This document shows, piece by piece, positions 8,376-38,605 of a DNA stretch of 44,290 nucleotides. The translations under genes were made by a program, and so were the position numbers. Origin of the DNA: Marine Group I thaumarchaeote (lineage in GTDB: Archaea > Thermoproteota > Nitrososphaeria > Nitrososphaerales > Nitrosopumilaceae); NCBI GenBank assembly GCA_013390905.1, contig JACATG010000010.1, positions 1 through 44,290 of the forward strand, written 5' to 3'. Position 1 is the first letter of the stretch. Every line of letters begins with the position of its first letter. The notes below the pieces were generated by a model that saw only the letters and a list, made by a program, of their open reading frames with translations, did no database searches and was not told the DNA's origin.

Positions 8376-9260
8376 CTAAAAATGTAATGGCAAAGGATTA
8401 TCAAGTGGAATAAGAGTAGAATGACCCATTAACTTTTCACATAGGGAAAAATTAGCTTCTTGTCTTTGTTTAAGCACGATATTGAAGTATTTTCTAAACC
8501 CATGACAGGTGGGAATATTGTATCTATTTCCTTTTTTTACCTTTGAAACATTCTTCATAGACAATTCAATACAACCTCTTACTGATTCAATTCCCATTCC
8601 TTGTGAGGGATTAGAGCCAAGATAATACTTCTTTCTATATGCAGGAGAATCAGAAGTTAATCGTTCTTTATCATTCTGACGTGCTTCTAAATAATCATCA
8701 AAAGCCTTTGAAGCTTCTGGGGTCATAAAAGTAACATATTCATCTTTAGAATCTGCATAACATACAACCCTTTTACAATCTTCATAATTTGTAATATGAC
8801 CTAACTTTAATTCAGGGATAACCCCAACACGACAACCACTAGAAGCCAAAAATAAAATCAATGACCTTGTACGAAATTTTAATGTATTTTCTAACATTGT
8901 TTGAATCTGTTCTCTAGTGTAAGCCCCATAACCCCCCTTCTTGATAGTTTCAGGAAACATTTTGTGAAGTAGCTTTGCATTGATATTCACTTTGTTCATG
9001 ATATAGAATAACTCAACAGGTTTGAAGATAGTTGGAATATAATTAGGGGAAAAATTAAGTTTTAGATACATCACATAATCTTCTAACTTTCTTTGAATAC
9101 CTTTCTCATCTGCTTTTAGTAAATCATCATAATCCTTGCAATCCTTATTCCAAGTAAGAAATCTCTCAAGATGGTAAACGTAAATTTTCTTAGTATATTC
9201 TGATTTTATGGCACTAAGAAATAGGGAATAACTTCTAGCCTGTAAATCAGATTTGACCAT
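8376..9260 (-). pseudogene. tyrosine recombinase (integrase), C-terminally truncated
   Basis: 294 residues. Residues 1-105 form an SAM-like core-binding domain; the catalytic domain has R144 (SSGCRVG), K172, H253-x-x-R256 (CHGFRKYF) and H280 (KLMGHSTL). These are four of the five to six catalytic positions. The sequence then ends LDNPLPLHF-TAG about 14 residues after H280, where family members normally continue with about 30-50 residues including the Tyr nucleophile. No matching tail is seen in the other frames downstream. It is thus either dead or half of a gene split at its own attachment site. Mobile-element relic. Confidence 0.75.
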
Positions 9261-10902: not shown

Positions 10903-11220
10903 TTAATTAGCTTCTAATTCAATTTCAGAATTACATACAGGCAACTTACCTGATTCATTTTTGAATTGTTCAATTAATCGTAGTTGGTGATCCTTGGGGT
11001 TATCAACAAATTCTCTTTGATATGATTGAGTTTTTTGTTTACATTCATTTCCTTCAAAATCAGTATCAACATATTTTGTAAATCTCTCTTCTAGATTATT
11101 TGCTTCCCCAATGTAAATTGGCTCTTTATTTCTATTATACAGAACATATACTCCAGAAACTGACTTTACAAATTTTGCACTCTCAAGCCAAACCCTCATC
11201 TTGTCATCAAGTAATTCCAT
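10903..11220 (-). CDS. GIY-YIG domain protein
   Basis: About 105 residues. SGVYVLYNRNKEPIYIGEAN carries both halves of the motif: GVY at residues 23-25 and YIG at 36-38, followed by the conserved Arg in NNLEERF (R46). A Glu that could bind the metal lies in EFVDNP or LIEQFK. It is a stand-alone single domain, like UvrC N-terminal or Slx1-type nucleases. ATG at 11220 is preferred over GTG six codons earlier. It diverges from the Fe-S helicase, a suggestive DNA-repair pair. Confidence 0.72.
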   Translation of the reverse strand: MELLDDKMRVWLESAKFVKSVSGVYVLYNRNKEPIYIGEANNLEERFTKYVDTDFEGNECKQKTQSYQREFVDNPKDHQLRLIEQFKNESGKLPVCNSEIELEAN

Positions 11221-11280
11221 AATGTAGGATAATCTCACTAGATATTAAACTAGGTTACAATAGCTTGGATATTACAAAAA

Positions 11281-13370: not shown

Positions 13371-13616
13371 TCTTACCTAACAGAAGAAAAAACAGAAAAT
13401 TCATTGTGTCAAGCAAAATACAGATGGGCAGCTCGGAAAAAAATGGCTTCTAAGATTGGAGATCCAGTTTTTGCCATGGCAAAATATGGCAAAGTATTTC
13501 GTTTTACAATTCCTGTAAGTGCTGCAGGATTAATTCTAATAAGTACTGAACTTGATATTTCAATAGAGGATGTCGTAGCGAAAATTTGTAATATTAGGAA
13601 TAAGCATTATTCCTAA
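13371..13616 (+). pseudogene. roadblock-like (DUF6659-like) gene fragment, N-terminus lost
   Basis: The frame between TAA at 13368 and TAA at 13616 reads SYLTEEKTENSLCQAKYRWA, ARKKMASKIGDPVFAMAKYG, then KVFRFTIPVSAAGLILIS. It aligns by eye with residues about 41-95 of the protein at 2564-2956 (NYLSQKETAEALKRA, then PKIGRGLYAIAAFEKITRMTFP). The similarity continues upstream of the only start (TTG at 13404) and ends at the stop, so roughly the first third of the gene is missing. It could still be translated from TTG as 70 residues. Overlaps the HD-hydrolase fragment. Confidence 0.5.
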
Positions 13617-13695
13617 AACTCTTGAAGGAAAAATACTTTAGGATGCCGATAGATTAGGTGCATTAGGAGCAATAGGGATTACAAGACAACACTAG
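13600..13695 (+). pseudogene. HD-type phosphohydrolase remnant with a nonsense codon
   Basis: In frame +1 the sequence reads IIPKTLEGKIL, stop, DADRLGALGAIGITR. This is the conserved block of HD-domain metal-dependent phosphohydrolases (typically EGKILQDADRLDALGAIGIAR). The TAG at 13639-13641 stands where the family has a Gln codon (CAG), one base change away, and a conserved Asp is replaced by Gly. Only about 30 codons survive; there is no HD motif itself upstream. A clear remnant. Confidence 0.6.
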
Positions 13696-13768
13696 TCAAA
13701 ATTTATCAAGCGATCAAAGATTAATCTTCACTCATGAGGGTAAATGTTCTTTTTGAAATTGACTGTCA

Positions 13769-13933
13769 ATGAATGAGATGCAATTAAGTGATAGAATCAA
13801 AATGGCACATACCATTGAAATTGAAAGCGCAATTAGAAGAAAATTGGCATTAAAAATTAGTTGGTATGATGTACATGGAGAGAATCACACTGAACAATAT
13901 TCGATAGACGAAGGTTCAAAAATAGAATTCTAA
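13769..13933 (+). CDS. 54-residue hypothetical protein
   Basis: ATG at 13769 to TAA at 13931-13933. The sequence (MNEMQLSDRIKMAHTIEIES, then AIRRKLALKISWYDVHGENH and TEQYSIDEGSKIEF) looks like a folded mini-domain: one helix, then a strand and turn. Another ATG is at codon 4 and at codon 12 (MAHTIEIES). It lies amid remnants, so it may be itself a decayed gene, but its frame is intact. Not recognised. Confidence 0.42.
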   Translation: MNEMQLSDRIKMAHTIEIESAIRRKLALKISWYDVHGENHTEQYSIDEGSKIEF

Positions 13934-13968: not shown

Positions 13969-14073
13969 CTAGGCTTTGATGATTTTAATGATCTTTGTTG
14001 GTAATTCTTTGTAGTTTGCATCAGGTTCTGCATAAACATACAAAGTGTCGAAATTGTGGTGAAAGTTTTCCAT
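13969..14073 (-). CDS. 34-residue hypothetical protein
   Basis: ATG at 14071-14073 to TAG at 13969-13971, reading MENFHHNFDTLYVYAEPDAN then YKELPTKIIKIIKA. The pattern of a strand, a turn and a basic helix is protein-like. Its stop lies 36 bp from the stop of the convergent gene at 13769-13933. Short length leaves real doubt; it might be the end of a larger lost gene. Confidence 0.33.
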   Translation of the reverse strand: MENFHHNFDTLYVYAEPDANYKELPTKIIKIIKA

Positions 14074-14183
14074 AACAAGATAATTACGACTAAACAAGTA
14101 TTCAAAAATACTGCGTAGATGTTAAATAGTTCAATTACTAAATTTTATTGATGTTACTAGACATCTTGTATAACAAATAGACT

Positions 14184-14272
14184 GCGTAGCCCTGCAGAAC
14201 GAAAATGGCTAACAGGCATTTGATCTGTCAAAGAGAGGTAATCTCTCAAAGTTCTGCAAAAATGGGCTGCGC
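14184..14272. ncRNA. strongly base-paired element, candidate structured RNA
   Basis: GCGTAGCCC (14184-14192) pairs with GGGCTGCGC (14264-14272) over 9 bp including one G-U, and directly continues with TGCAGAAC (14193-14200) pairing with GTTCTGCA (14251-14258) over 8 perfect bp, with AAAAT bulged at 14259-14263. The enclosed 50 nt can form GAGAG-GTAAT-CTCTC (14233-14247) and a weaker ACAG/CTGT hairpin (14212-14228). The GC-rich stems stand out in AT-rich DNA with no gene. It is not a tRNA and I do not recognise it as a known RNA family; strand unknown. A miniature palindromic element is the alternative. Confidence 0.5.
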
Positions 14273-14350
14273 CATTTAATTTTGTATTAAAGAATTCATA
14301 AAAAAAGAGTTTTGAGATTCAATCTAAATGATGTTTTTCAAGGTTATTCT

Positions 14351-38283: not shown

Positions 38284-38357
38284 GCCGGGGTAGCTCAGCC
38301 TGGGAGAGCACTCGGCTGAAGACCGGGCTGTCGCGCGTTCAAATCCCGCCTCCGGCA
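38284..38357 (+). tRNA. tRNA-Phe (GAA)
   Basis: 74 nt. Acceptor stem GCCGGGG pairs with CTCCGGC (one G-U), then discriminator A at 38357; CCA is not encoded. D-arm TAGCTCAGCCTGGGAGAGCA, anticodon loop CTGAAGA with GAA at 38318-38320, and T-arm GCGCGTTCAAATCCCGC are in place. No intron is visible. Confidence 0.97.
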
Positions 38358-38605
38358 CTTAAAATATTATTTATAGATTTCTAAAAAAATTATAGAATCA
38401 AAAACTAAATGGATCTGTTAATATCAAAAATATTTATTCATTAAAACAGGATTTTGTTTATTTAAATTAGATTTGTCTGTTTATATTTGATAATACGGTG
38501 CGCTGAATTGACTAATTAATTGTATGTGATTATGAAAATAATATTTTAGTTGGCTGCCAAAAAATATTTACTGAATAATTTCCATTAAAAACCTTCTTGC
38601 ATAAT

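Follow-up and report, generated by a model that had tools for sequence, protein, structure and literature searches.

The stretch of DNA analyzed here (the window, 44,290 nucleotides of a contig from a Marine Group I thaumarchaeote) carries on its forward strand a folded RNA core at positions 14184-14272, which lies within an RNA gene of ~135 nt (about 14151-14284). It is followed about 780 nt further on by ilvD, a convergent gene. On the other side, the gene-poor stretch at 13404-13930 holds short ORF fragments without a Pfam match that together have the appearance of a decayed gene. Further upstream are an integrase-like gene (8376-9260, minus strand; Phage_integrase, just below the cut-off) and a gene for a GIY-YIG protein (10903-11238, minus strand), and this upstream stretch is possibly an old integrated element.

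A first-pass annotation of the same DNA had proposed an undescribed structured RNA. This proposal is supported, but the element had been drawn too small, as its 5′ part, the nine-codon ORF and the dedicated promoter were missed. The full feature extends from a promoter beginning at ~14073, through a predicted 5′ end at 14151, to a U-rich end at ~14284. Its parts, all on the plus strand, are as follows.

14073-14088 (+): upstream promoter box 1 region (AAAA..TT..A in the family, −49 to −35 relative to the TATA box), weak in the window copy
14098-14110 (+): upstream promoter box 2, TATTCAAAAATA in the window (T..AA in the family, −21 to −17 relative to the TATA box)
14122-14128 (+): archaeal TATA box TTAAATA, its first T 29 nt from the ATG
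14150-14165 (+): P0 hairpin GAUGUU-ACUA-GACAUC, within the mini-ORF, in a register unlike that of most relatives
14151-14180 (+): mini-ORF ATG TTA CTA GAC ATC TTG TAT AAC AAA TAG (MLLDILYNK*), from family comparison
14184-14192 (+): P1 5′ strand, pairing with 14264-14272 (9 bp, one G-U) and starting 3 nt past the stop codon
14193-14200 (+): P2 5′ strand, pairing with 14251-14258 (8 bp)
14212-14228 (+): P3 hairpin, ACAG 14212-14215 with CUGU 14225-14228 (UCAG/CUGA in most relatives)
14233-14247 (+): P4 hairpin GAGAG-GUAAU-CUCUC with a GNRA-like pentaloop, from the family alignment
14251-14258 (+): P2 3′ strand, from the fold and the family alignment
14259-14263 (+): bulge AAAAU, 5 nt on the 3′ side between P2 and P1, also present in relatives with variable length
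14264-14272 (+): P1 3′ strand, from the fold and the family alignment
14273-14284 (+): U-rich 3′ end CAUUUAAUUUUG, a putative terminator (a U-rich stretch follows CGCC in most copies)

Fold and covariation

The minimum free energy of the element is −37.3 kcal/mol, compared to −19.9 ± 3.1 kcal/mol for 200 dinucleotide shuffles, none of which was as low (z = −5.5). A composite helix of 9 bp with one G-U pair and 8 bp, interrupted by a 5-nt bulge, had been read from the letters alone, and its coordinates proved to be exact; the GAGAG/CUCUC hairpin was likewise recovered at 14233-14247. The weaker hairpin described with it does exist, but in another register: the alignment backs ACAG/CUGU, and folding of the single sequence gives AAAUG.GC/GC.CAUUU. 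Across the family, the RNA is built from P1 (9-10 bp), a 3′ bulge and P2 (7-8 bp), followed by a junction with P3, which is variable and covarying, and P4, so that P2, P3 and P4 form a three-way junction. The family 3′ terminus is CGCC and then a U-rich stretch. Pairing of AAAAAGGC within the linker with GCCUUUU of the 3′ end, as judged by eye, fits some copies, fails in others and was rejected. In P4 (14233-14247), GAGG is kept in nearly all copies; it is similar to the core of a Shine-Dalgarno sequence, here concealed by the hairpin.

Strong covariation across genera was found when the copies were compared. For the genus alone, both partners have changed in 11 pairs, and such changes fill 72 cells of the alignment compared to 25.5 in shuffles. 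In the family alignment, both-side changes occur in 31 of the 36 pairs (217 cells versus 53 shuffled), 90% of cells are paired, and the covariation score is 0.357, versus 0.165 for shuffled alignments and at most 0.067 with the partners slid. As the copies of the family alignment were fitted to the model, this alignment is biased in the model's favor; the genus alignment, which was made from sequence only, agrees in direction. Under a tree-based null made for this analysis, structure pairs account for eight of the nine best-scoring column pairs. If every column pair is taken into account, only two of the 36 pairs reach E < 0.05, and 10 would pass if the test were confined to the proposed 36. 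Among the helices in the family alignment, P3 has both-side changes in all seven modelled pairs, and P4 has them in four of five with 98% of cells paired. P0 covaries in relatives but is conserved less than any other helix, with pairing in 76% of cells. Collectively, the alignments show that the fold is under selection.

The RNA does not belong to any class against which it was compared. None of the 4227 Rfam models matched at the locus at the gathering or a relaxed threshold, and the best relaxed matches were at chance level. ARAGORN found a cloverleaf only at 38284-38358 (tRNA-Phe) and none at the locus, in agreement with the earlier exclusion of tRNA. It had also been stated that the element could not be fitted to box C/D, H/ACA, SRP or RNase P RNA, and each of these memberships failed its test. 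A box C/D guide sRNA should carry a C box (RUGAUGA) near the 5′ end and a D box (CUGA) near the 3′ end; inspection by eye found a C-like AUGAUG in a subset of copies only and no CUGA near the 3′ end. A box H/ACA guide sRNA should carry an ACA box 3′ of a hairpin, and the 3′ end, inspected in the same way, is CGCC and a U-rich stretch without a conserved ANA. The archaeal RNase P RNA (RF00373) of the same genome lies elsewhere, at C11:315265-315543. Archaea_SRP RNA (RF01857) is about 310 nt long, and the criterion is not met by a multicopy RNA of ~135 nt. No SRP RNA was matched in the assembly that holds the window (G000), which is probably an assembly gap; because all 22 relatives tested carry their true SRP RNA elsewhere, the candidate is not a stand-in for it. 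A literature search of partial coverage found no description of the RNA; marine metatranscriptome studies have reportedly encountered archaeal small RNAs without assignment. The RNA gene family is previously undescribed and has no Rfam entry.

A family of RNA genes with a shared promoter

The 1.23-Mb genome of origin contains three copies in total, the two others being 72-75% identical by blastn, which also found copies in most members of the genus. This genus is taken to be Nitrosopumilus, to which most of the named records with a copy belong; one copy lies on a contig of Candidatus Nitrosopumilus limneticus. A covariance model was built from 41 copies aligned by sequence; its E-values are rough. 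With this model, one to five copies per genome were found in 221 of 250 Nitrosopumilaceae genomes, including 126 of the 131 good family genomes (at least 90% complete and clean), and in 18 of 22 genera. No match was obtained in the sampled other families of the order and class, even with a wider model. A DNA-pattern scan of 84,980 species returned 108 stretches, and all of the 80 listed come from Thaumarchaeota or otherwise archaeal records. The DNA pattern, an exact one tuned to Nitrosopumilus-like copies, had no match in viral contigs, and a viral origin is to that extent without support. A link to ammonia oxidation was considered as well and rejected, because the RNA was not detected in three genera of the family (g27, g29 and g42) that nevertheless have amoA, and ammonia oxidizers of other families lack it.

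The window copy is the most diverged of the three in its genome by model score, and it falls into a third, more diverged clade together with copies L155 and L036. L155 is 86% identical to it across 14088-14296, promoter included, in surroundings that are otherwise dissimilar. Another genus, g41, includes a GC-rich genome in which two RNA copies stand in tandem, ~170 nt apart (L125:1195-1638).

Many copies, including those of distant genera, lie between a divergent SDR dehydrogenase gene and a small, unassigned convergent gene (c0), whose stop codon overlaps the RNA 3′ end at this main locus. Others adjoin a DUF1246/DUF1297 gene, which we take to be purP-like, or sit elsewhere. A riboswitch or attenuator would be expected at a constant, co-oriented position upstream of a regulated gene, and this expectation is not met, as the adjacent gene is convergent and the neighbors vary. 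The possibility raised at first, that the element is a mobile palindrome, found no sign in its favor, given one to five copies per genome, an orthologous locus across genera and a promoter of their own; target duplications were not searched systematically. The pattern of loci is that of a gene acting in trans and having paralogues, and it fits this better than a cis or mobile element.

The promoter consensus was drawn from 67 dissimilar upstream regions. A TATA-like motif is present at one set distance in 90 of the 93 copies, compared to 0.9% of random windows, and two upstream A/T boxes are common to copies in unrelated neighborhoods. Of these elements, the TATA box and box 2 are retained in the window copy. 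Its ATG, 29 nt after the first T of the TATA box, stands where an archaeal transcript would be expected to start. The composite promoter pattern, with up to three mismatches allowed, was found eight times in five genomes, and in every case a copy follows immediately downstream. Its elements (two A/T boxes, AAAT, TATA and TCCTATA) are thus found in these five genomes only before RNA copies, and this exclusivity suggests that a dedicated transcription factor may serve the RNA's promoter.

The nine-codon open reading frame

The mini-ORF has its stop codon exactly at codon 10 in 126 of 129 distinct copies; of the remaining three, two stop at codon 9, and the third had been mis-anchored but has nine codons as well. 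Among the 126, TAA is used 77 times, TAG 38 times and TGA 11 times, and UGG was never seen. Internal stops occur in none of these copies in frame 0 but in 106 and 41 of them in frames +1 and +2, respectively. When the copies were reduced to 17 clusters (<70% identical), which are not fully independent, internal stops were again absent (P about 2.5e-5 by shuffling), and each of the three stop codons was represented. The seven copies without ATG have TTG or GTG as codon 2. The distance from the stop codon to P1 is 3-4 nt in 116 of 126 copies, and the length of the ORF is kept in copies whose P0 is wholly changed (L133 and L137).

The encoded peptide shows no such constancy. The nine-codon copies specify 63 distinct peptides, and 80 synonymous changes were counted versus 97 expected; because synonymous changes are not enriched, the peptide is not conserved. 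By comparison of the copies, the start, stop and length of the mini-ORF are kept and the peptide is free. As P0 lies inside the ORF, part of this conservation may be structural. Translation of the ORF is strongly inferred; like it, the leaderless start and expression are inferences from sequence alone. The position of the stop codon, right at the foot of the conserved fold, suggests that the RNA itself is acted on by a ribosome.

Mechanism, rival explanations and known systems

The gene family, its fold, its promoter signature and the conservation of the ORF are established by these comparisons; it is a hypothesis that the opening of P1 works as a switch and that its output affects ribosomes or mRNAs in trans. 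In the best model, to which we give about an even chance, the element is a stand-alone Nitrosopumilaceae sRNA gene on which a ribosome terminates at the foot of P1, coupling translation to the fold, and the RNA acts in trans. Transcription from the dedicated TATA promoter would start at or beside the AUG and yield a leaderless RNA of about 135 nt. The ribosome would initiate on the 5′-terminal AUG, read eight further codons of free sequence and meet the stop codon 3-4 nt before P1. Once the stop codon had entered the A site, the ribosome would cover ~ten further nucleotides, which correspond to the P1 5′ strand, and opening of P1 (9-10 bp) is expected because of this coverage, an inference from established ribosome geometry. 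Opening would end at the bulge between P1 and P2, and beyond it P2 and the three-way junction would stay folded. The RNA would thereby have two translation-coupled states and serve as a ribosome-associated regulatory RNA acting in trans. Folding of the window copy with those P1 nucleotides blocked agrees, in that P2 and the junction remain closed. An alternative 3′ hairpin appears in the window copy under this condition, and it is not conserved across copies (P = 0.18). The more specific proposal, that the RNA is gated by translation termination, with a fixed-length ORF of free sequence only parking the ribosome and P1 opening switching trans-acting states, is tentative and may well be wrong. 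Selection of a fixed-length ORF without selection of its peptide is unusual, which is a point against the main model.

The same conservation might arise without a ribosome if the RNA were a protein-bound scaffold or decoy, with the AUG and stop as by-products of the start site and of unpaired nucleotides around P0. The partial covariation of P0 is compatible with such an RNA, and, as protein binding would predict, the RNA varies least in P4, which has a GNRA-like loop, and at the base of P1. This explanation is regarded as unlikely but credible, as it does not account for the use of all three stop codons in the absence of UGG, for 17 dissimilar clusters without an internal in-frame stop (P about 2.5e-5), for codon 2 being TTG or GTG where the ATG has been lost, or for an ORF length held where P0 is completely altered (L133 and L137). 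Less room is left for an antisense base-pairing sRNA that targets mRNAs through seeds in the P2-P3 linker or the 3′ tail, with translation incidental. An independent gene with several paralogues would suit it, and within Nitrosopumilus the linker GAAAAAGGCAAUC hardly varies; however, the linker is unconserved in other genera despite the conserved fold, and the bulge and P1 3′ strand have no conserved pairing to the 3′ tail, so that this reading is quite doubtful.

Action in cis on a neighboring gene, by a leader-peptide attenuator or an antisense element, is decidedly improbable. While a short ORF followed by a helix and a U-tract is attenuator-like, and the main-locus 3′ end overlaps the stop codon of the convergent gene, that downstream gene is convergent, the neighbors vary elsewhere, ilvD in the window is convergent and ~780 nt off, and the alternative 3′ hairpin of the window copy is not conserved (P = 0.18). 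A micropeptide gene with a structured 3′ UTR, in which the peptide is the product, would explain why the ORF is fixed and why its start and stop codons are good, but the nine-codon copies encode 63 different peptides, synonymous changes are not in excess and the folded part is far better conserved, which makes this reading very improbable. A mobile palindrome or insertion-sequence relic can practically be dismissed: several copies per genome and the gene-poor region around the window copy are what it would predict, but the same locus across many genera, the dedicated promoter, the compensatory changes and the lack of a viral-contig match to the DNA pattern are not.

Nitrosopumilaceae are among the ocean's most abundant archaea and account for much of the ammonia oxidized in the sea. 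The RNA is likely important to them, because it is kept in nearly all Nitrosopumilaceae, in up to five copies, with its own promoter. If the tentative proposal of gating by translation termination is true, the cell would read translation or termination status through an RNA without an attached gene. The constant nine-codon ORF with its unconstrained peptide provides a direct and testable handle, as the ribosome would act on the RNA itself.

Compared to known systems, the RNA shares single features with several of them. Dual-function sRNAs such as SgrS/SgrT and RNAIII/hld combine a short ORF with a structured or regulatory part, and their peptide is longer and conserved. The present RNA likewise has a short ORF and a structured part in one small RNA, but its peptide is without detectable selection and only length, start and stop are kept; purifying selection on the peptide, the criterion for this class, is not met (80 synonymous changes versus 97 expected). 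In leader-peptide attenuators and trans-acting attenuator RNAs such as rnTrpL, the short ORF ends at the foot of a helix that the ribosome can open. The ORF described here also finishes at the foot of a helix that the ribosome would open; unlike in those systems, no downstream gene is conservedly controlled, and there is no codon run reporting an amino acid. Thalassoarchaea ncRNA 1 (Tan1) of marine Euryarchaeota is abundant, 229 nt long and unassigned, with only a proposed fold (PMC5069720). Both are unassigned structured RNAs from marine planktonic archaea, but Tan1 is from another phylum and longer than the present RNA of about 135 nt. In Haloferax volcanii, ribosome profiling has found small RNAs on ribosomes, mostly without a detected protein product (PMC12482152). 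The present RNA resembles these as an archaeal small RNA whose ribosome binding is here only inferred, and it differs from them in having a defined fold that covaries, an ORF fixed at nine codons and a promoter common to the family.
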